From assembly GCF_003751445.1 (NCBI RefSeq), contig NZ_RJUU01000001.1:2113001-2177000 (forward strand): 64,000 bases of DNA. The letters run 5' to 3'. The stretch is from Streptomyces sp. 840.1 (lineage in GTDB: Bacteria; Actinomycetota; Actinomycetes; Streptomycetales; Streptomycetaceae). Under the pieces are notes generated by a model. That model searched no databases. It was not told the DNA's origin and saw only the letters and a list, made by a program, of their open reading frames with translations. The translations under genes and the position numbers were made by a program. Positions 12,877 to 42,784 of this stretch are shown here, piece by piece (the first letter of the stretch is position 1; each line of letters begins with the position of its first letter).

Positions 12877-14400
12877 CTATGCCGCTGCCGCGGCCGGGTC
12901 AGCCCGAGCCGATTCTCCTCGCTCCGCACGGCGCAGCAGCACCGCGGCCAGCACTCCGCCCGCCAGCACCGCCACCGCGCCGGTCAGCTGGCTCGCCTCA
13001 AGACCCGAGGCGAAGGCGTCCGTGATGCGCTGCCGCTCCCCCGCCCCGCTCGCCGCGGCCAGTGCCGCGGGCAGCGAGGCCGCCCCCACGGCCGTCGGGA
13101 CGAGCGTGGAGAAACGGGAGTTGAGCACCGCGCCGAGCACCGCGACCCCGAGGCCGTTGCCGCATTCGGCGAGGGTGCCGTTGACGCCGGCGCCGACGCC
13201 CGCCCTCGCAGGCGGGATCGCGCTCATGATCGCGTTGGCCATGGCGGGCGCGGCGAGCGAGATGCCCGCGCCCATCACGACCAGGCCGAGCAGCATGCCC
13301 CCGTACCCGCTGCCGCCGAGCAGCGCGATCGAGGCCAGGCCTGCGGCGAGCAGGCCCATGCCGGAGGCGATGGTGACGGGCGTGCCGAGCCTGGGCAGCA
13401 GCCGGGCGCCCAGCCCGGCGAGGTTGAGCACGATGACGCTCACCGCCAGCGGAGCCGTCCGCAGACCGGTCTCCAGCGGGCCGTAGCCGAGGACGAACTG
13501 GAGCTGCTGGGTGAGCAGGAAGAGCGAGCCGCCCATCCCGAACGCGACCAGGATCGCGCCCGCGACCGCGCCGACGAACCGCTGGTTCCGGAAGAAGTGC
13601 ATGTCCAGCATGGGGTAGGGGATGTGCAGCTCCCACAGCACGAATCCGGTGAGGACGGCGACCCCGGTGAACGCGGTCAGCAGCACCTGGCCGGAGGTCC
13701 AGCCGTGCCCGGGTCCGGAGATGATCGCGTACACGACCGAGGCCATGCCGATGGTGGAGAGCAGCGCGCCGAGCAGGTCCGGGCGGTCCCCGGTGCGGCT
13801 CTTGGACTCCGGCACCAGCCGCGCCACGGCCACCAGGCCGAGGAGTGCGACCGGGATGTTGACCAGGAAGATCGCGCCCCACCAGAAGTGGTCGAGCATG
13901 ACCCCGCCGATCAGCGGGCCGACGGCGAAGCCGAGCGAACCGACGGTCGACCAGACGCCGATCGCCTTCACCCGCTCGGTGTCGTCGAAGATCTGGACGA
14001 CGACGGCCAGCGTCGTGGTCATCAGCAGGGCGCCGCCGATGCCCATGCCGGCCCGTGCGGCGATCAGCTGCGCGGAGGTCTGGGCGAGCCCGGCCACCAG
14101 CGAGCCGACGCCGAAGAGGGCGAGCCCGGCGAGCAGCATCTTCTTGCGGCCGTAGCGGTCGGCCGAGCTGCCGGCGGTCAGCAGCAGACCCGACTGGACG
14201 AGCGAGTAGGCGTTGATCATCCACTGCACGTCGGCGGTGGAGGCGTCCAGTTCCCGGGTGAGGGAGGGGATCGCGATGTTGAGGACGGTGTTGTCGAGCA
14301 CCACGGTGAGCTGGGCGAGGCAGATGACACCGAGGATCAGCCAGCGCTGCGGATGGCTCGTCTGCGTGAGGGGGTTCTGCTCGGCGGCGGACGCCGTCAT
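12877..14400 (-). CDS. DHA2-family MFS multidrug exporter
   Basis: A 507-residue 14-helix transporter. Signatures are LDNTVLNIAIPSL in helix 1, the loop 2-3 motif SSADRYGRKKM, and the antiporter motif around LGFAVGPLIGGVM in helix 5. Members such as QacA, EmrB and actinorhodin- or tetracenomycin-type pumps export hydrophobic drugs by proton exchange. An upstream in-frame ATG at 14424 lies 6 bp from the operator and has no ribosome binding site, whereas the ATG at 14400 has GGAG seven bases upstream, so I use the latter. It is probably co-transcribed with the downstream TetR gene. Confidence 0.92.
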   Translation of the reverse strand: MTASAAEQNPLTQTSHPQRWLILGVICLAQLTVVLDNTVLNIAIPSLTRELDASTADVQWMINAYSLVQSGLLLTAGSSADRYGRKKMLLAGLALFGVGSLVAGLAQTSAQLIAARAGMGIGGALLMTTTLAVVVQIFDDTERVKAIGVWSTVGSLGFAVGPLIGGVMLDHFWWGAIFLVNIPVALLGLVAVARLVPESKSRTGDRPDLLGALLSTIGMASVVYAIISGPGHGWTSGQVLLTAFTGVAVLTGFVLWELHIPYPMLDMHFFRNQRFVGAVAGAILVAFGMGGSLFLLTQQLQFVLGYGPLETGLRTAPLAVSVIVLNLAGLGARLLPRLGTPVTIASGMGLLAAGLASIALLGGSGYGGMLLGLVVMGAGISLAAPAMANAIMSAIPPARAGVGAGVNGTLAECGNGLGVAVLGAVLNSRFSTLVPTAVGAASLPAALAAASGAGERQRITDAFASGLEASQLTGAVAVLAGGVLAAVLLRRAERGESARADPAAAAA

Positions 14401-14430
14401 TCGGACTCCCGGGCGTTCGGTCATGAGGCC

Positions 14431-14468
14431 CTATACGGTGTACAGGGAAACTGTTGTACACCGTATAG
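14431..14468. promoter_or_regulatory. Perfect 14-bp inverted repeat, likely TetR operator
   Basis: CTATACGGTGTACA (14431-14444) and its exact reverse complement TGTACACCGTATAG (14455-14468) flank a 10-bp spacer. It sits between the divergent MFS and phosphatase genes, 31 bp before the chosen MFS start, where repressor binding would cover the promoter. Confidence 0.75.
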
Positions 14469-14543
14469 CCAGCTCTTCGCGGCCTACAACCGACTTTCCC
14501 GCGGTACGGTGCCGATCGCTGATCCGACAAGGGCTGGAGTGGT

Positions 14544-15407
14544 ATGTCACTGCGTCGCCGTACGGTGGAAGTCCTGGTTGCCGCAGGCCTGTTGGGGGCG
14601 GCACTCGCGCCTCCGGCGACGGCTGCGGGGCACGGGCCGCAGGGGTCGGTACCCCTGCGTGTGGCCACGTACAACATCCATGCGGGTGCGGGCATGGACA
14701 ACGTATTCGACCTCGACCGGCAGGTGGCGGAGCTCCGCTCGCTGCACGCGGACGTCATCGGGCTGCAGGAGGTCGACGTCCACTGGGGCGCGCGCAGCGA
14801 GTGGCGGGATCTGGCGGGCGAGCTGGGCCGGCGGCTCGGCATGCGGGTCTCGTTCGCCCCGATCTACAGCCTCGATCCGGCCACGCCGGGCGCGCCGCGC
14901 CGCGAGTTCGGGGTCGCGGTGCTGTCCCGGTACCGCGTGGTCGGCGCCGAGAACCACGACATCACCCGGCTCTCCACCCAGGACCCGAACCCGGTCCCGG
15001 CCCCCGGACCCGGCTTCGGTGAGGTGGTGCTGCGGGTGAAGGGGCTGCCCGTGCACGTCTACGCCACGCACCTGGACTACCGCGGCGACCCGTCCGTCCG
15101 GATCGCCCAGGTGGCCGACACCCGCGGGATCATGGCCGAGGACCGGAGGCAGGAGCGGGGCCCGGTGCGGCAGATCCTGCTCGGCGACTTCAACGCGGCC
15201 CCGGCCGCTCCGGAGCTGGCCCCGCTGTGGGAGGAGCTGACGGACGTCGAACCGGGCGGGCCCACCTTCCCGGCGCAGGACCCGGTGCAGCGGATCGACT
15301 ACGTGGCGGTGTCGAAGGACACCGTGCGGGTACGCGGCGCGGCGGTGGCCGGGACTCTCGCCTCGGACCACCGCCCCGTCGTCGCGGACCTGTTGCTGCG
15401 GCGCTGA
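14544..15407 (+). CDS. Secreted endonuclease/exonuclease/phosphatase-family hydrolase
   Basis: A 287-residue protein with a signal peptide (RRRTVEVLVAAGLLGAALAP, cleavage near PATAAG). The metal-dependent EEP fold motifs are all present: RVATYNIHAG, GLQEVDVHW (metal Glu), THLDYRGD, LLGDFNAAP (Asp/Asn), RIDYVAVS and SDHRPVVADL (catalytic His). The family includes DNases, sphingomyelinases and inositol phosphatases acting outside the cell; the substrate is not resolvable. GGAG lies upstream of the ATG. It ends 3 bp before the convergent glycosyltransferase gene. Confidence 0.9.
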   Translation: MSLRRRTVEVLVAAGLLGAALAPPATAAGHGPQGSVPLRVATYNIHAGAGMDNVFDLDRQVAELRSLHADVIGLQEVDVHWGARSEWRDLAGELGRRLGMRVSFAPIYSLDPATPGAPRREFGVAVLSRYRVVGAENHDITRLSTQDPNPVPAPGPGFGEVVLRVKGLPVHVYATHLDYRGDPSVRIAQVADTRGIMAEDRRQERGPVRQILLGDFNAAPAAPELAPLWEELTDVEPGGPTFPAQDPVQRIDYVAVSKDTVRVRGAAVAGTLASDHRPVVADLLLRR

Positions 15408-34454: not shown

Positions 34455-36104
<1,650 letters not shown>

Positions 36105-36156
36105 GGCGTCCTCCCGGTGGGCGCTACGCGGCAGTAAGGTTCCGCTGATTCTGCGC

Positions 36157-36174
36157 ACATACCGAGCGGTATGT
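36157..36174. promoter_or_regulatory. ACATACCG-AG-CGGTATGT palindrome, likely TetR-type operator
   Basis: A perfect 8-bp dyad with a 2-bp centre in the promoter region of the acyl-CoA ligase. ACCG-NN-CGGT cores are used by several TetR-family regulators of acyl-CoA metabolism. No regulator gene lies next to it. Confidence 0.6.
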
Positions 36175-36288: not shown

Positions 36289-37062
36289 TCACCTGACCGG
36301 CGTCAGCTCCGGGTCCTGGCGCAGCTTGCCGAGCGCCCGGGACACGGCACTCTTGACCGTGCCGATGGACACTCCCAGCACTTCGGCCGTCTGCGCCTCG
36401 CTGAGGTCCTCGTAGTAGCGCAGGACGACCATCGCCCGCTGGCGGTCGGGCAGCTTCAGCACCGCCCGCCACATGGCATCGTGCAGGGACTGCTGCTCCG
36501 CGGGGTCGGGTCCCGGGGCCGTCTCCTGCTCGGGCACCTCGTCGCAGGCGAACTCGTCGACCTTGCGCTTGCGCCACTGCGAGGTCCTGGTGTTCAGCAG
36601 CGCCCGGCGGACATAGCCGTCGAGAGCCCGGTGGTCCTCGATCCGCTCCCAGGCGACGTACGTCTTGGTGAGGGCGGTCTGCAGCAGGTCCTCGGCGTCG
36701 CTGGGGTTCGCGGTGAGCGAGCGCGCCGCGCGCAGCAGCACGGGCCCCCGGGCCTTCACGAAGGACGTGAACGACGGATACGGGACGTACGGAGCGCGTG
36801 CACCGTACGAGGTGCGCGCGGCGGCCGACGTGCGCGGCACCGCGTACGGAGCGGCGGACGTCTGTGGAGCACGCGGGGCCGTCGATGCGTGTGTCGGTAC
36901 GTCCGTCGACACGAGCGTCGACCCGTGTGCCGATACGTGTGCCGATACGTGTGCCGATACGAGTGGCGGATGTCCGGCGAGCGGCGCATGCGGGTTGTGC
37001 GGCGTGCGTCCGGCGCCGGCAGCGGCTCCCCTGAAGGTGTCCGTGCAGACTGGCGTGGTCAT
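36289..37062 (-). CDS. SigE-family ECF sigma factor with extended repeat-bearing N-terminus
   Basis: A 257-residue protein. Region 2 starts near residue 97 (FTSFVKARGPVLLRAARSLT, DAEDLLQTALTKTYVAW), and region 4 reads YYEDLSEAQTAEVLGVSIGT, VKSAVSRALGKL. The core is of the SigE group of actinobacterial ECFs (about 170 residues). The first 95 residues are extra, disordered and His/Ser/Thr-rich, with VSAHVSAHVSAHG encoded by three perfect 12-bp repeats. Such an extension could be a pro-sequence or an unfolded leader. The ATG has GTGGAGGC seven bases upstream. No anti-sigma gene is adjacent. Confidence 0.85.
   Translation of the reverse strand: MTTPVCTDTFRGAAAGAGRTPHNPHAPLAGHPPLVSAHVSAHVSAHGSTLVSTDVPTHASTAPRAPQTSAAPYAVPRTSAAARTSYGARAPYVPYPSFTSFVKARGPVLLRAARSLTANPSDAEDLLQTALTKTYVAWERIEDHRALDGYVRRALLNTRTSQWRKRKVDEFACDEVPEQETAPGPDPAEQQSLHDAMWRAVLKLPDRQRAMVVLRYYEDLSEAQTAEVLGVSIGTVKSAVSRALGKLRQDPELTPVR
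36925..36960. repeat. Three perfect 12-bp repeats (GTGTGCCGATAC)
   Basis: Three back-to-back copies lie within the 5' part of the sigma gene and encode the SAHV repeats on the minus strand; related half-copies flank them. Confidence 0.9.
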
Positions 37063-37233: not shown

Positions 37234-38400
37234 TCACTCCCCCCGGCCCAGGACCAGGCCCGAGGTGGGCACCCCCGTGCCGGCCGTGACCAGGGACCGG
37301 GCCGCGCCGGGTATCTGGTTCACCGAGGTGCCCCGGATCTGCCGGACCGCCTCCGCGATGCCGTTCATGCCGTGCAGGTACGCCTCCCCCAACTGGCCGC
37401 CATGGGTGTTCAGCGGCAGCGCGTCCGCCGCCACGAAGTCGGCGGCCTCGCCCGGTCCGCAGAAGCCGAACTCCTCCAACTGCATCAGCACGAACGGGGT
37501 GAAGTGGTCGTACAGGATCGCCACGTCGATGTCGGCGGGGGAAAGGCCGGAGTTCCGCCAGAGCTGGCGGGCGACGACATCCATCTCCGGCAGCCCGGTC
37601 AGCCCGTCACGGTAGAAGCTGGTCATCTGCTCCTGTGCCCGCCCGGCCCCCTGAGCGGCGGCGACGATCACCGCGGGCGGCTGCCGAAGATCCCTGGCCC
37701 GTTCCGCGCTGGTGACGACGATCGCCTGGCCGCCATCGGTCTCCTGGCAGCAGTCGAGCAGCCGCAGGGGCTCGACGATCCAGCGGGACGCGGCATGCTC
37801 GGCGAGAGTGATCGGCTTCTCGTAGAAGTACGCCGCCGGGTTGCGCGCGGCATGGCGCCGGTCGGTGACCGCGACATGGCCGAAGGCCTCCGGCGTCAGC
37901 CCGTAGGTGTGCAGGTACCGCTGGGCGGCCATGGCCACCCAGGAGGCCGGGGTGAGCAGTCCGAAGGGCAGGTTCCAGCCGAGCGCCGCGCCCTCGGCGG
38001 TGGGCTCCCGCTGCTGCACCCCCGAGCCGAAGCGCCGCCCCGACCGCTCGTTGAACGCGCGGTAGCAGACGACCACGTCGGCCACCCCGCAGGCGACGGC
38101 GAGGGCCGCCTGCTGGACGGTGGCACAGGCCGCCCCGCCGCCGTAGTGGATGCGGGAGAAGAACGACAGCTCACCGATGCCGGCCGCCTGGGCGACGGTG
38201 ATCTCGGGGCTGGTGTCCATGGTGAAGGTGACCATCCCGTCGACGTCGGCGGGGCTGAGCCCCGCGTCGTCGAGCGCCGCCCGCACCGCCTCGACGGCCA
38301 GCTTGAGTTCGCTGCGGCCCGAGTCCTTGGAGAACTCCGTCGCGCCGATCCCGGCCACGGCCGCCCGTCCGCCGAGCGAATCGGCTCTGCGCACGCTCAT
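37234..38400 (-). CDS. Lipid-transfer protein/thiolase-like retro-aldolase (Ltp2-like)
   Basis: A 388-residue thiolase-fold protein of the SCP-x/lipid-transfer group: AAVAGIGATEFSKDSGRSEL at the start, RIHYGGGAACATVQQAALAV (nucleophile-Cys region), AILYDHFTPFVLMQLEEFGF and LNTHGGQLGEAYLHGMNG near the end. In M. tuberculosis Ltp2 works as an aldolase on steroid 3-carbon side chains and needs the DUF35 part of ChsH2. Here the same partners are encoded immediately upstream. It overlaps the preceding MaoC gene by 4 bp and is the last gene of the operon. Confidence 0.9.
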   Translation of the reverse strand: MSVRRADSLGGRAAVAGIGATEFSKDSGRSELKLAVEAVRAALDDAGLSPADVDGMVTFTMDTSPEITVAQAAGIGELSFFSRIHYGGGAACATVQQAALAVACGVADVVVCYRAFNERSGRRFGSGVQQREPTAEGAALGWNLPFGLLTPASWVAMAAQRYLHTYGLTPEAFGHVAVTDRRHAARNPAAYFYEKPITLAEHAASRWIVEPLRLLDCCQETDGGQAIVVTSAERARDLRQPPAVIVAAAQGAGRAQEQMTSFYRDGLTGLPEMDVVARQLWRNSGLSPADIDVAILYDHFTPFVLMQLEEFGFCGPGEAADFVAADALPLNTHGGQLGEAYLHGMNGIAEAVRQIRGTSVNQIPGAARSLVTAGTGVPTSGLVLGRGE

Positions 38401-38846
38401 GCGGGCCCCTCCGGAAGGCTGACGGTCACCGTGCCGGTGACATGGCTGCCGAGCCCGTTGGCACCGACCACCGACACCTCGGCCGTCCCGTCGCCGGCGA
38501 GGGCGGTCACCTTGCCCCTCAACACCATCGTGTCGCCGGGATAGTTCGGAGCGCCCAGTCTGATGGCGACCCTTCTGAGCACCGCCGAGGGCCCGAAGTG
38601 GTCGGTGACGTACCGCCCGACCAGGCCGTTGGTCGTCAGGATGTTCATGAAGATGTCCGGGGAGCCCTTCTCCCGGGCCAGCTCCGCGTCATGGTGCACG
38701 TCCTGGTAGTCGCGGGAGGCGACCGCCCCCGCCACGATCAGGGTGCGGGTCACCGCGATCTCCAGCGGTGCCAGCTCTTCTCCGACCTTCAGCACTCTTC
38801 CGGCCTTCGTTCCTTCTCCGACCTTCGTTCCTTCTCCGGCCTTCAT
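38397..38846 (-). CDS. Small MaoC-fold enoyl-CoA hydratase subunit (ChsH1-like)
   Basis: A 149-residue hot-dog protein. The hydratase motif is SRDYQDVHHDAELAREKGSP, with Asp/His as the catalytic pair, followed by FMNILTTNGLVGRYVTDHFG and LRRVAIRLGAPNYPGDTM. ChsH1-type proteins pair with the MaoC half of ChsH2 to hydrate the steroid side-chain enoyl-CoA. The first 20 residues are a K-[AV]-GEGT repeat encoded by 18-bp DNA repeats and look dispensable. The start has GGAGGGATCG upstream. It overlaps its neighbours by 4 bp on both sides. Confidence 0.88.
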   Translation of the reverse strand: MKAGEGTKVGEGTKAGRVLKVGEELAPLEIAVTRTLIVAGAVASRDYQDVHHDAELAREKGSPDIFMNILTTNGLVGRYVTDHFGPSAVLRRVAIRLGAPNYPGDTMVLRGKVTALAGDGTAEVSVVGANGLGSHVTGTVTVSLPEGPA

Positions 38847-39877
38847 CGCGATCCCTCCTCCACGAGCAGTCCGCCGAGTTCCTGAAGCACTTCGCTGCCG
38901 CAGCCGAGGTAGGCGTCGAGCTGGCGTCCCCAGAGGAAGTGCCGGTGCACGGGATGGTCGAGGTCGGCGCCCGTGCCCCCGTGCAGATGCTGGGCCGCGT
39001 GCACGACCCGCCGCCCCGCCTCGGACGCCCACCACGCGGCGGTCAGTGCCTGCGCCGCACGGGGCAGCGACCGGTCGTGCAGCCAGGCCGCCTCGTAGGC
39101 CGTGACCCGTATCGCCTCGGTGTCCATGTGGGCGTCGGCGGCGCGCAGCAGCACGCCCTGGTTCGTCGAGAGAGGACGCCCGAACTGCTCACGTGTGCCG
39201 GTGTGTTCGACAGCGCGCGCCACCGCGCCCGCGCACACCCCCGCCTGTAGACCCGCGAACGCCGTCCGGGCCGTCGCCAGCACCTCCTCGTACGCCGCCG
39301 CCCCGCCGAGCCGCTCGCCCGCCACCCCGTCGAGCACGAGCCGTCCCGCCGCCCACGGGGCGGTCGTCTCCACGGGCTCGGTGAGAACCCCCGCGTCGGC
39401 CGTCCGCACCATCCACAGCGAGCGGTCCGCGGCCGCCACCAGGACGTGGGTGGCCTCCCGCAGCCACGGCACCAGCGGCACCGTGCCGCTCAAGCCCCCC
39501 TCGGGCCCGACCCGCACGGCGCCGGCTGCCGGGAAGGCCCCCGTCGCCACCGCCGTGCCGTCCCGGAACCGTGACAGCAGCCGCTCGCGCTGTTCGTCCG
39601 TACCGTGTCCGGCGACGGCGAGCAGCCCATACACGCAGCTCGCCGCGAGGGGCACCTGCGCGGTCGTCCGGCCCTGTTCCTCCAGCAGAAGAACCAGGCC
39701 GAGGAGTCCGATCTCCTCGACCGCCCCCGGCAGTCCGGCCGCGCAGAGCTCCTTCCAGAGCTCGGAGTCCGTACCGGTACCGGCCGCGACCAGGCGCTCG
39801 TGCGTCGACAGATCACCGAAGATCCGGGCGGCGAGCCCCTGTGCGGCGGCCTGCTCCTCAGTGGGTGTGAAGTCCAT
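38843..39877 (-). CDS. Acyl-CoA dehydrogenase, short alpha-type subunit (FadE28-like)
   Basis: A 344-residue acyl-CoA dehydrogenase of the short form (full-length enzymes have 380-390 residues): MDFTPTEEQAAAQGLAARIF start, GLLGLVLLLEEQGRTTAQVP, weakly conserved central FAD region, then REQFGRPLSTNQGVLLRAAD and the C-terminal QHLHGGTGADLDHPVHRHF. The middle is Ala/Gly-rich and diverged, as in FadE28-type subunits that need a partner dehydrogenase for a complete active site. The fellow subunit is two genes upstream. It is 1 bp from the ChsH2-like gene. Confidence 0.88.
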   Translation of the reverse strand: MDFTPTEEQAAAQGLAARIFGDLSTHERLVAAGTGTDSELWKELCAAGLPGAVEEIGLLGLVLLLEEQGRTTAQVPLAASCVYGLLAVAGHGTDEQRERLLSRFRDGTAVATGAFPAAGAVRVGPEGGLSGTVPLVPWLREATHVLVAAADRSLWMVRTADAGVLTEPVETTAPWAAGRLVLDGVAGERLGGAAAYEEVLATARTAFAGLQAGVCAGAVARAVEHTGTREQFGRPLSTNQGVLLRAADAHMDTEAIRVTAYEAAWLHDRSLPRAAQALTAAWWASEAGRRVVHAAQHLHGGTGADLDHPVHRHFLWGRQLDAYLGCGSEVLQELGGLLVEEGSR

Positions 39878-39878
39878 G

Positions 39879-40988
39879 TCAGCCCTCGCTCCCCCGGAAG
39901 ACCGGCAGTTCCAGTTCAGGGTCCGCTCGCAGGAATTCCAGCCGGACCGGCATCCCCACCCGCACCTTGTCGTACGGCACCCCGATGACGTTGCTGACCA
40001 TCCGGACCCCCTCCGCGAGCTCCACCAGCGCCACCGCGTACGGCCCGGCCTCCTCGGACGTGCTGAACGCGGGGAAGGGCGGGTGGTGCATCACCACGTA
40101 CGAGAAGACGGTGCCCTCGCCGGATGCCTCGACCGTCTCCCACTCGGACGAGCCGCAGGCGTTGCAGCCGGGCAGCCAGGGGAAGCGGAGCGTGTCGCAT
40201 GCCCGGCAGCGCTGGATCAGCAGCCGGTGCGACGGGATGCCCTGCCAGAAACCGGCGTTGTCCCGGTTGATCACCGGCCTCGGCCGCAGGCTCCTGCCGC
40301 CCCGCGTCTCCCCGGACCGCTCGGCCCCCCTGCCCCGGCCCGCCCCTCCGGCCCGCGCCGACTCCTCGGCCGGGGCCCCTGCATCGAGCGCCTCCTGCGG
40401 CTTATGTGGCTTATGCAGCTCCTGTACCTTCTCCGACTCCTGTGACTCCGGGCCGCCGGTGCCACTCGTTGTCACTGCCCTCGCTGCCGCCCTCGCCGCA
40501 GGCCGGTACTTGAGGATCCGGAAGCGGTGCGTCCCCGCCGGCTCGTCCTGTGCCCGGACGTCCATACGCGTGGTGATGAAGTAGCCCGTCCCCAGCTTCG
40601 TCGTCTTCCGCTCCGACACCGCCTCGATCACCGCGTCGAAGGTGATCCGGTCACCGGGCCGCAGCGGCCGCAGGTACTCCTGCTCGCAGTCGGTCGCGAC
40701 CACCGAGGCGTACCCCGCCCCGTCGAGCAGGCCGAACAGCTCGTCGTAGGCCTCGCCCCGGTCCGTGTGCCCCGAGAGCCCGCCCATCGTCCAGGCCTGC
40801 AGCATGGCCGGAGGGGCGATGGCGCCGGGTCCGGTGTATGCCGGGTTCGTGTCTCCCATCGCCTCGCACCAGTGTCTGATCATGGGCTCGTTGACCAGGT
40901 CCTTGCCGCTGCCGGCGATGGCGGCCGGCTGCCCCTCGTACGCCCTGAGCCGCTCGTACAGTTCGTCCCGCACGCCCTGCCCGCCCAT
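39879..40988 (-). CDS. MaoC-N-terminal/DUF35 zinc-ribbon fusion (ChsH2-like)
   Basis: A 369-residue two-domain protein. Residues 1-170 form a MaoC-type hot-dog (MIRHWCEAMGDTNPAYTGPG, ITFDAVIEAVSERKTTKLGT). A linker of about 60 residues is Glu/Lys- then Gly/Arg-rich. Residues about 245-369 are DUF35: WQGIPSHRLLIQRCRACDTL, PGCNACGSSEWE (zinc-binding Cys4), then an OB fold (GTVFSYVVMHHPPFPAF). In mycobacteria the MaoC part acts with ChsH1 and the DUF35 part with the Ltp2 aldolase, channelling the product. Its ATG overlaps the upstream stop by one base (TGATG), with GAGGGGG upstream. Confidence 0.9.
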   Translation of the reverse strand: MGGQGVRDELYERLRAYEGQPAAIAGSGKDLVNEPMIRHWCEAMGDTNPAYTGPGAIAPPAMLQAWTMGGLSGHTDRGEAYDELFGLLDGAGYASVVATDCEQEYLRPLRPGDRITFDAVIEAVSERKTTKLGTGYFITTRMDVRAQDEPAGTHRFRILKYRPAARAAARAVTTSGTGGPESQESEKVQELHKPHKPQEALDAGAPAEESARAGGAGRGRGAERSGETRGGRSLRPRPVINRDNAGFWQGIPSHRLLIQRCRACDTLRFPWLPGCNACGSSEWETVEASGEGTVFSYVVMHHPPFPAFSTSEEAGPYAVALVELAEGVRMVSNVIGVPYDKVRVGMPVRLEFLRADPELELPVFRGSEG

Positions 40989-42163
40989 CACCGTTTCCCC
41001 CTCTTCATCCCGAGCCGCATCGTCGCGACGATCTCCCGCTGCACCTCGCTCACCCCGCCCCCGAAGGTGTTGATCTGTGCCGCCCTGTTCATCCGCTCCA
41101 GCTCCCCGTCCCCGAAGGAGCCGGACGAACCGGCCCGGATCATTCCGGCCTGCCCCGTGATTTCCTGGCACATTCGGTACACCTCCACAGCGCTCTCGGT
41201 TCCCACGAACTTCACGCCGCTCGCGTCGCCGGGGGCCAGCGCACCGGCCCCGACATCCCCCACCAAGCGCCAGCTGAGCAGGCGTGTCGCCGCCAGCCGG
41301 GCATAGGCCTCGGCCAGCCTGGACCGAATCCACGGCTCGTCGGCCGGTCGCCGTCCAGTCAGCGGATCGGGCGTACGGGCGAAGGTGAGCGCCGCGTCGT
41401 AGAAGTCCTCGGCCTGCATCCCGATCGCGGCCAGCGCGACCCGCTCATGGTTCAACTGGTTGGTGATCAGCCCCCAGCCGCCGTTCTCGGCGCCGACCAG
41501 CCCGGTGGCGGGTACCTGCACGCCGTCGTAGTACGTGGCGGTCGTGGTCAACCCGCCGACCGTCTCAATGGGTGTCCAGGAGAAGCCGGGCGCGTCCGTC
41601 GGTACCAGGATGATCGAGATGCCCCGGTGCTTGGGCGCCTCCGGATCCGTGCGGCAGGCGAGCCAGATCCAGTCGGCGTTCTGCGCGTTGCTGGTGAAGA
41701 TCTTCTGCCCGTCGATGACCCACGAGTCGCCCTGCCGCACCGCCCTGGTCCGCAGCGCCGCCAGGTCGGTTCCGGCCTCCGGTTCGCTGTAGCCGATGGC
41801 GAAGACGATCTCCCCGGCCAGGATCCGGGGCAGGAAGTAGTCCTTCTGCGCCTCGGTCCCGTACTTCATCAGGGTGGGACCCACTGTGTTGAGGGTGACC
41901 ATCGAAACCGGGGCGCCCGCCCGGTAGGCCTCGTCGAAGAAGACGAACTGTTCGTCCGCGCCGCGTCCCTGGCCGCCGTACTCGACGGGCCAGCCGAGTC
42001 CCAGCATCCCGTCCGCACCGATGCGGCGCAGCAGCCGTCGCTGCTCGGCCGGACTGCCGGCCGTCGGCCCGGTCCGGTCACCGGGCTCCGGCATCACCTC
42101 GCGGAAGTACGTGCGGAGTTCGGCGCGCAGCTGTAGCTGGCGGTCCGTAGGGGCCAGATGCAC
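40988..42163 (-). CDS. Acyl-CoA dehydrogenase, catalytic subunit (FadE29-like)
   Basis: A 391-residue acyl-CoA dehydrogenase: RIGADGMLGLGWPVEYGGQG, FAIGYSEPEAGTDLAALRT (FAD/substrate loop), FTSNAQNADWIWLACRTD, TNQLNHERVALAAIGMQ (candidate catalytic Glu) and INTFGGGVSEVQREIVATMR. With the 344-residue partner it should form an alpha2beta2 enzyme, as FadE28-FadE29 do. It is the first gene of the operon; the GTG has GGGAGGC seven bases upstream, and a palindrome 39-55 bp upstream is the likely operator. Confidence 0.92.
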   Translation of the reverse strand: MHLAPTDRQLQLRAELRTYFREVMPEPGDRTGPTAGSPAEQRRLLRRIGADGMLGLGWPVEYGGQGRGADEQFVFFDEAYRAGAPVSMVTLNTVGPTLMKYGTEAQKDYFLPRILAGEIVFAIGYSEPEAGTDLAALRTRAVRQGDSWVIDGQKIFTSNAQNADWIWLACRTDPEAPKHRGISIILVPTDAPGFSWTPIETVGGLTTTATYYDGVQVPATGLVGAENGGWGLITNQLNHERVALAAIGMQAEDFYDAALTFARTPDPLTGRRPADEPWIRSRLAEAYARLAATRLLSWRLVGDVGAGALAPGDASGVKFVGTESAVEVYRMCQEITGQAGMIRAGSSGSFGDGELERMNRAAQINTFGGGVSEVQREIVATMRLGMKRGKR

Positions 42164-42201: not shown

Positions 42202-42218
42202 TCTGACTGTCCGTCAGA
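42202..42218. promoter_or_regulatory. TCTGAC-TGTCC-GTCAGA palindrome, likely operator of the igr-like operon
   Basis: Perfect 6-bp arms flank a 5-bp centre, 39 bp before the first gene of the operon. CTGAC...GTCAG dyads are typical of TetR-family regulators of acyl-CoA dehydrogenase genes. It does not match the KstR or KstR2 patterns I know. Confidence 0.55.
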
Positions 42219-42472: not shown

Positions 42473-42784
42473 TCACCAGAGATTGGTGAAGTTCACCGCG
42501 AGGTTGTGGCTGGACTGGTCGATGGCGGTGAACGCGGAACCGTTCACCTGGGCGGAGTTGCTGTGATTCGACGCCCCGTCACCGATGGCCTGCTGCTGCG
42601 AGGTGGACGAGTTGCCGAGGTTGGCCCCACCGACGCCACTGCCGCTGATGGCGGCCACACCGGCGTTCGATCCGTCGTTCGCGAACGAGCCGTTGTCGGC
42701 CTGGGCCACACCACCGAGGAGAGCGGCGGCGAGGGGCAGAGCGGCAACAATGGCGAGGGCACGAGCGGTACGGATGCTTGCCAT
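42473..42784 (-). CDS. Small secreted Asn/Ser/Gly-rich protein
   Basis: A 103-residue precursor with a clear signal peptide (SIRTARALAIVAALPLAAAL, cleavage after AQA). The 70-residue mature part is rich in Asn, Ser, Gly and Ala (DNGSFANDGSNAGVAAISGS, AFTAIDQSSHNLAVNFTNLW) and has no Cys. Composition and size recall small cell-surface proteins of Streptomyces such as rodlins or chaplins, but I see no definite signature of either. GGAGGA lies seven bases before the ATG. Confidence 0.65.
   Translation of the reverse strand: MASIRTARALAIVAALPLAAALLGGVAQADNGSFANDGSNAGVAAISGSGVGGANLGNSSTSQQQAIGDGASNHSNSAQVNGSAFTAIDQSSHNLAVNFTNLW

Follow-up and report, generated by a model that had tools for sequence, protein, structure and literature searches.

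A predicted steroid side-chain operon in Streptomyces sp. 840.1 and its co-occurrence with HIP-type C/D-ring genes

Introduction

Which substrate would a set of steroid side-chain enzymes serve in a streptomycete? The question is raised by a five-gene operon at positions 37234-42163, minus strand, of a 64-kb window (C1:2113001-2177000, the whole stretch of DNA analyzed here) in the 8.84 Mb, four-contig genome of Streptomyces sp. 840.1. The operon contains the same five families as the mycobacterial igr operon (ChsE1-ChsE2, ChsH1-ChsH2 and Ltp2). Across Streptomyces genomes its aldolase, Ltp2, tracks IpdC of the HIP-type cluster for C/D-ring degradation, which this genome carries on a different contig. 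In our judgment there is an even chance that the operon is the side-chain module of a 'lower half' steroid pathway, working beside the HIP-type cluster on partly degraded steroids. The spread of Ltp2 in Streptomyces, its tracking of IpdC, the loss of the dehydrogenases as a whole pair and a conserved upstream palindrome are new here. Our literature search, in which coverage of subscription journals was thin, found no title or abstract opening on such an operon or pathway in Streptomyces, and nothing on S. rubescens with cholic acid.

Enzymes encoded by the operon

The five open reading frames (ORFs) are free of internal stops, and the five-gene operon of the preliminary description of this locus is confirmed. 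Its junctions, said to overlap by 1 or 4 bp or to be 1 bp apart, are so in the sequence. E29 and H2 share one base (TGATG, 40988), H2 and E28 are separated by a 1 bp gap (39878), and 4 bp overlaps join E28 to H1 (38843-38846) and H1 to ltp2 (38397-38400).

The first gene (40988..42163, minus strand, as are all five) encodes a chsE1-type large acyl-CoA dehydrogenase ('E29') of 391 aa with a GTG start. The product of chsH2 (39879..40988, 369 aa) is composed of a non-catalytic MaoC domain and a DUF35 domain with a zinc ribbon and an OB fold. The remaining genes encode a small acyl-CoA dehydrogenase subunit ('E28'; 38843..39877, 344 aa), the catalytic MaoC subunit ChsH1 (38397..38846, 149 aa) and the thiolase-fold aldolase Ltp2 (37234..38400, 388 aa). 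Pfam domains are those of acyl-CoA dehydrogenases in genes 1 and 3, MaoC in gene 4 and the thiolase fold in gene 5. Gene 2 has a dehydratase-like (MaoC-type) region followed by the zf-ChsH2 zinc ribbon and OB_ChsH2_C.

Each protein was compared with all solved structures, and the score of the best match was set against that of the first other family. The large dehydrogenase scores 441 bits to Tcur3483 (6wy8_B) and 381 to 4x28_A, with the next family at 145; the small subunit scores 214 bits to Tcur3481 (6wy8_A) and 110 to 4x28_D, with the next at 61. The DUF35 part of ChsH2 matches 6ok1_B at 156 bits (next 71) and its MaoC part 4w78_A at 109 bits. ChsH1 reaches 119 bits to 4wnb_B against 37 for the first other family, and Ltp2 564 bits to 6ok1_A against 173. 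Ltp2 also belongs to NCBIfam PRK07855 (669 bits, cut-off 469). The identities with ChsE1/ChsE2, ChsH1/ChsH2 and Ltp2 proposed earlier are borne out by these margins over ordinary relatives for all five proteins. Ordinary fatty-acid oxidation was considered as the function of the operon and rejected, since the same margins favor steroid side-chain enzymes.

The large dehydrogenase, aligned with Tcur3483, keeps the dehydrogenase Glu, which we take to be catalytic, and the Gly at which 6wy8 and 6wy9 differ, which is presumably tied to short side chains. The Asp/His motif of ChsH1 is kept, with RDYQDVHHD aligned with RDFQDVHHD of 4wnb_B, and in ChsH2 GDTNPAY aligns with GDRNPIY, where a Tyr appears to replace the dyad His. 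This matches the rule, given in the accessible text of PMC11321319, that ChsH1 has the Asp/His dyad and ChsH2 lacks it (His to Tyr). Tyr297, His299 and Tyr341 of Ltp2 align with Tyr294, His296 and Tyr344 of TcLtp2, to which the accessible part of PMC12329534 assigns the roles of base, oxyanion hole and acid in C3 side-chain cleavage; the YDHF motif is kept. The DUF35 domain of ChsH2 has the Cys4 zinc finger (Cys-x2-Cys-x10-Cys-x2-Cys) of TcChsH2, following the rule for this domain in the same source. The removal of a 3-carbon side chain, suggested earlier, agrees with the conservation of the residues predicted to perform retro-aldol cleavage. Judged from sequence, the enzyme chemistry of the operon is well supported.

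Coupling to the HIP-type cluster

A set of genes homologous to the HIP (KstR2) cluster of steroid degraders lies at C2:588-600 kb. The best match of a CoA-transferase subunit from the set is 6co6, at 348 bits, with the first other family at 88. Identities to Nocardia farcinica proteins are 66% for a FabK-like reductase (IpdC), 70% for an EchA20-like hydratase, 73% for another hydratase, 67% for a thiolase, and 65 and 51% for acyl-CoA dehydrogenases; the genes were also run against NCBIfam. Two genes of the cluster and an SDR have counterparts, 80-93% identical, next to the ring cluster in Streptomyces that carry KshA.

IpdC is present in 206 of 295 Streptomyces genomes. Ltp2 and IpdC occur together in 202 genomes and are both absent from 82; seven genomes have Ltp2 only (G001, G079, G144, G168, G178, G224 and G242) and four IpdC only (G073, G152, G198 and G201). 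Most of these 11 mismatches are incomplete or fragmented assemblies. Because related genomes share both genes, a kin-aware test was made on a squalene-hopene cyclase gene tree of 60 genomes (half of them, 30, with Ltp2 and 30 without), picked among those with listed cyclase coordinates. The tree, a quick build from a single gene of a kind that gene transfer can mislead, contains at least 9 changes of Ltp2 and 6 independent pairs on well-supported branches. IpdC differs in the same direction as Ltp2 in 5.9 of 6 pairs on average and in the opposite direction in none (sign test, p 0.03).

Distribution of Ltp2 and of A/B-ring genes

Ltp2 was found in 213 of the 295 genomes at E 1e-60 or better, and 209 of these matches are orthologues by score. 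G073, G142, G201 and G237 were scored as negative, their only match being at 1e-89 to 1e-102 (G073 was examined, the others were judged by score alone). In named Streptomyces records with the same locus, Ltp2 identity is 82-94%. The squalene-hopene cyclase is absent from 13 of the 295 genomes, none of which has Ltp2, a pattern for which ancestry or genome size may be responsible.

KshA is present in 28 genomes (288-321 bits), and 27 of them also have Ltp2; in the remaining one, G152, a fragmented assembly, Ltp2 was not found. KshA is missing from 182 of the 209 Ltp2-bearing genomes. HsaC matches occur in 63 genomes, of which 26 are strong (272 bits or more, 47-51%) and all accompanied by KshA; the weaker matches are probably other extradiol dioxygenases. 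A second Ltp2 (70-72% identity) is present in 6 of 24 Streptomyces genomes examined and adjoins hsa and ksh genes in G179, G195 and G155, of which G195 has only that copy. Around the second copy of G103 (L099), no hsa or ksh match was found in its 19 kb.

Of the parts of a complete 9,10-seco steroid pathway, the genome of strain 840.1 contains the HIP-type cluster. KshA is represented by one remote 76-bit match only. With a Nocardia query (579 bits to 2zi8), no HsaC match reaches 1e-40, and no KstD match reaches 1e-110 with a query named by position and motif, which finds KstD in 107 of the 295 genomes. The preliminary description noted that the window has no ring-degradation genes, and none of the 16 window genes outside the operon that were scanned with Pfam or NCBIfam resembles one. 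Its suggestion that the substrate may not be cholesterol proved incomplete: at the cut-offs used, the A/B-ring half, as represented by KshA, HsaC and KstD, was not found, and C/D-ring genes of the HIP type are present elsewhere in the genome, which makes a steroid-type substrate more likely.

A conserved palindrome upstream of the operon

A palindrome, CTGAC-N5-GTCAG, forms a putative operator at 42203..42217, 39 bp ahead of the E29 GTG. In the form (A)TCTGAC-N5-GTCAGA(T) it is present upstream of all 67 core loci with upstream sequence, short operons included, at a distance of 6 to 165 bp from where the first gene is estimated to start. Under the pattern used it is absent from 40 other loci, some of which have little upstream DNA; two loci from metagenome-assembled genomes (MAGs; L169 and L170) have a looser variant. 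The palindrome presumably differs from the KstR operator.

The exact palindrome occurs at 38 sites in this genome, against 2 for a reversed control. It lies within 4 kb, a limit chosen after the sites were seen, of five of the six Ltp2-like loci, a number that 200,000 random draws of six places never reached. Near the sixth locus (C1:1481943) there is only a 9-of-10 variant, just upstream, and exact copies are lacking within 4 kb. Ten of the 38 sites are inside predicted ORFs, two more (L063 and L071) are inside ORFs taken as spurious, and many have no obvious acyl-CoA gene link. Of 40 acyl-CoA dehydrogenase matches in the genome, 39 were tested, one on contig C4 being excluded, and seven have a site within 4 kb; three loci account for six of the seven. 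Other genes beside sites encode acyl-CoA ligases, hydratases, an amidohydrolase, a MaoC hydratase, and FMO-like and luciferase-like monooxygenases. One site adjoins a set that includes a DUF35-like gene and two genes that we take to be Ltp3- and Ltp4-like; the Ltp3/Ltp4/DUF35-like proteins are 68, 56 and 44% identical to those of Nocardia. From its location, we would guess that a PF19352 TetR protein (L067:4243-4890) is a candidate regulator. Neither TGAC nor GTCA was found in the accessible text of PMC3511530 and PMC8728441.

Two further loci have a palindrome between divergent genes. At C1:1469.9-1474.0 kb (L071:13898-17986), a second Ltp2-like gene (47%), a DUF35 gene and an enoyl-CoA hydratase gene are divergent from an acyl-CoA ligase gene, whose product is 52% like a Nocardia ligase, and the palindrome sits between the ligase and Ltp2-like genes. 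Genome counts suggest that genomes retain or lose this locus along with the window operon. At C2:1307-1313 kb (L193:4316-10092), the palindrome separates a ligase gene from divergently oriented hydratase, DUF35, PRK07937 and Ltp3-like genes; the set is close to one in the Nocardia steroid region.

Loss of the dehydrogenase pair and selection

The 69 Streptomyces core loci comprise 40 with all five genes, 27 with chsH2-chsH1-ltp2 only and 2 that are unreadable and were left unclassified (L140 and L145, at contig ends). The 27 of 67 readable loci form a non-random sample, as the 80 named loci are the best of 591 matches listed and a further 20 regions were chosen by the author. None of the 67 has one dehydrogenase subunit without the other. 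The hydratase genes are at most 199 bp apart in 25 of the 27 short operons, and the two other gaps (582 and 603) accompany incomplete chsH2 matches. On the Ltp2 tree, from which two of 67 rows were excluded for stops or length, the state of the pair requires 9 changes, at least 4 of them on supported branches. The dehydrogenase pair thus appears to come and go as one enzyme, while the hydratase-aldolase part persists.

The ratio of nonsynonymous to synonymous substitution rates (dN/dS), determined against 7 partner genomes, six of them without KshA, is 0.03-0.14 for ltp2 in all seven comparisons. It is 0.12-0.22 for chsE29, 0.13-0.21 for chsE28, 0.19-0.45 for chsH2 (seven comparisons each) and 0.19-0.42 for chsH1 (five usable rows); two chsH1 rows and one sigE row were excluded as wrong ORFs. 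The operon is under purifying selection, also in comparisons with genomes that lack KshA. Many Streptomyces retain the five-gene block, and dN/dS stays under 0.5 for each of its genes in every usable comparison, so its conservation is more than chance. G036, G180 and G224 each have an Ltp2 that is broken across frames or into pieces, and both dehydrogenase genes of G224 are fragmented as well.

Comparison with known systems

The operon shares with mycobacterial igr the catalytic residues, where tested. Its genes were said to follow the mycobacterial order, which the typing of loci disproves. All Streptomyces core loci with five genes have the order E29-H2-E28-H1-ltp2, whereas the mycobacterial order is E28-E29-H2-H1-ltp2. 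The comparison covered 38 other loci, 34 from named genome records and 4 second copies in Streptomyces. The mycobacterial order is present in 19 of them, including five mycobacterial loci (L174, L176, L177, L178 and L181); the genera are Mycobacterium, Mycolicibacterium, Rhodococcus, Prescottella, Gordonia, Nonomuraea, Sphaerisporangium and Lentzea, together with two MAGs. The order of the window operon occurs in 13, comprising 11 MAG records (Acidimicrobiales and other actinobacteria) and two Streptomyces second copies. Two loci lack the dehydrogenases (a Frankiales MAG and Nonomuraea corallina), and four could not be typed. In Nonomuraea gerenzanensis and Nocardia farcinica (L041 and L042), E29-H2-H1-ltp2 are consecutive, and an E28-like gene precedes E29. 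The igr operon adjoins cyp125; the operon described here was said to be without it, and indeed no P450 gene is present among the neighbors scanned with Pfam, the part of the genome in which CYP125 was sought.

The closest solved relatives of the dehydrogenases, the DUF35 domain and Ltp2 are Tcur3481/Tcur3483 and TcChsH2-TcLtp2 of Thermomonospora curvata (6wy8 and 6ok1), and gene numbers suggest that T. curvata has the gene order of the window operon. T. curvata metabolizes steroids, whereas searches of the Streptomyces genome did not, at their cut-offs, find KshA, HsaC or KstD, and its HIP-type set occurs without them. In Comamonas Sal/Shy the hydratase and the aldolase are joined via a DUF35 domain, as is predicted here. 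According to the accessible part of PMC12329534, Sal cuts C5 side chains; its motif is YDCY, Gln takes the place of the second Tyr and its zinc finger is Cys3His1, in contrast to YDHF, Tyr341 and Cys4 in the proteins studied here.

Proposed role of the operon

We propose that the ChsE-like pair desaturates a CoA ester of the form ring-CH(CH3)-CO-CoA, after which ChsH1/ChsH2 would hydrate the ring carbon. Ltp2, bound to ChsH2 through the DUF35 domain of the latter, would then make the retro-aldol cut that yields a ring ketone and propionyl-CoA. From co-occurrence, we infer that the module feeds the HIP pathway from steroid fragments. It would work beside the HIP-type cluster in this genome and, as the co-occurrence of Ltp2 and IpdC suggests, in most sampled Streptomyces. 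The likeliest substrates would be steroid fragments with the C17 side chain still on, whose A/B rings were opened by other organisms. Gene content, conserved residues, distribution, the coupling to IpdC and the conserved palindrome were observed directly, whereas activity, substrate and regulation are predictions of this model.

A broader form of the hypothesis, which we put forward tentatively as having somewhat less than an even chance, is that most Streptomyces have a genus-wide 'bottom half' that removes the C17 side chain and degrades the C/D rings of steroid fragments from other microbes. The side-chain genes would form a palindrome regulon of their own, and lineages without the dehydrogenase pair would take already unsaturated substrates. 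If this is true, most Streptomyces are likely consumers of steroid debris in soil that gain propionyl-CoA. This would contrast with a survey which, in the accessible part of PMC4810484, reports the steroid pathway to be absent from 55 of 57 Streptomyces genomes. It would also turn an old finding, that a streptomycete grown on HIP yields MOODA (accessible part of PMC5380842), into gene-level predictions, and the dehydrogenase-free form would show a hydratase-aldolase unit serving on its own.

Several points weigh against a side-chain module of a lower-half pathway. The name IpdC is putative, based on context and similarity to FabK (accessible part of PMC5380842). None of the 38 exact palindromes is at the HIP cluster, the nearest being inside a predicted ORF at C2:578636, so that a single shared regulon is not shown. 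The 27 core loci without dehydrogenases indicate that the full module is not always needed. HsaA, CYP125 and mce4 lay outside the genome search, and a divergent A/B-ring system could have been missed. The 27 KshA-positive genomes with Ltp2 indicate that the operon can also belong to whole-steroid pathways.

Alternative explanations

The last two points lead to the alternative that these Streptomyces degrade whole steroids with an ordinary igr operon, their A/B-ring enzymes being too divergent for our queries or using other chemistry. The core-operon Ltp2 is the only close one in G012, G181, G257 and G268, the four KshA-positive genomes without a KshA-linked copy that were examined, as this explanation would have it. 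A palindrome in the genome of strain 840.1 adjoins two monooxygenase genes and genes for a flavin reductase 46% like Nocardia HsaB and a ferredoxin reductase. The failure to find KshA, HsaC and KstD at the cut-offs used and the survey cited above speak against whole-steroid degradation, which we consider rather unlikely. Decay of an ancestral full pathway could account for the broken genes of G036, G180 and G224 and for the loci without dehydrogenases. However, a relic would hardly show the low dN/dS of ltp2, a palindrome kept in 67 of 67 core loci, and a dehydrogenase pair that is missing whole and never by one subunit, and we regard it as very improbable.

The substrate might also be a ring other than a steroid that bears CH(CH3)-CO-CoA as an arm, for instance a hopanoid, another terpenoid or a polyketide. 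The shared absence of the cyclase and Ltp2 from 13 genomes would fit a hopanoid, and a broader range of substrates would be consistent with the frequent absence of the dehydrogenase pair and with the many other plasmid-borne clusters that encode Ltp2-like proteins (51 records at E 1e-40). Nevertheless, the cyclase is present in 282 of the 295 genomes, 73 of which have no Ltp2, so its link to Ltp2 is weak and may be due to ancestry, and the coupling of Ltp2 to IpdC is far tighter. A non-steroid substrate is in our view improbable, and the hopanoid link was rejected as the principal explanation because the cyclase is nearly ubiquitous. The side-chain module beside the HIP-type cluster remains our preferred explanation.

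Neighboring genes and other loci

Two genes downstream of the operon are conserved neighbors by synteny. The first encodes a SigE-family sigma factor (36289..37062, minus strand; TIGR02983, 207 bits, cut-off 142), for which we claim no membership of the pathway. The second encodes an AMP-binding, FadD-like acyl-CoA ligase (34455..36158, minus strand; PRK06187, 666 bits, cut-off 476), possibly the activating enzyme. It is not of a steroid-specific family, as it scores 214 to the steroid-24-oyl-CoA synthetase model, whose cut-off is 750. Just upstream of the operon, a gene kept in many Streptomyces encodes a secreted-looking protein of 103 aa (42476-42784, minus strand); an NCBIfam search at 1e-10 gave no match for it, and the label 'rodlin' is unsupported. 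Within the operon, alignments often break at the start of ChsH1 (38795-38846, minus strand), which has repeated GEGTK-type residues, and in the low-complexity linker that joins the MaoC part of ChsH2 to its DUF35 part (40260-40500, minus strand).

Among the loci from other organisms, a MAG labelled Bifidobacterium breve (L169) has a type-B igr operon arranged like that of another actinobacterial MAG (L170), and its label looks wrong. A contig of a Myxococcota MAG carries two Ltp2 genes (70 and 64%) on opposite strands (L162:8001-9158 and 13395-14549). A Rhodococcus rhodochrous plasmid (L040:18529-21161) has two MaoC genes, an OB-fold gene and an Ltp2-like gene (63%) with no adjoining acyl-CoA dehydrogenase genes, and the set adjoins genes for a hydroxylase and CoA-transferases.

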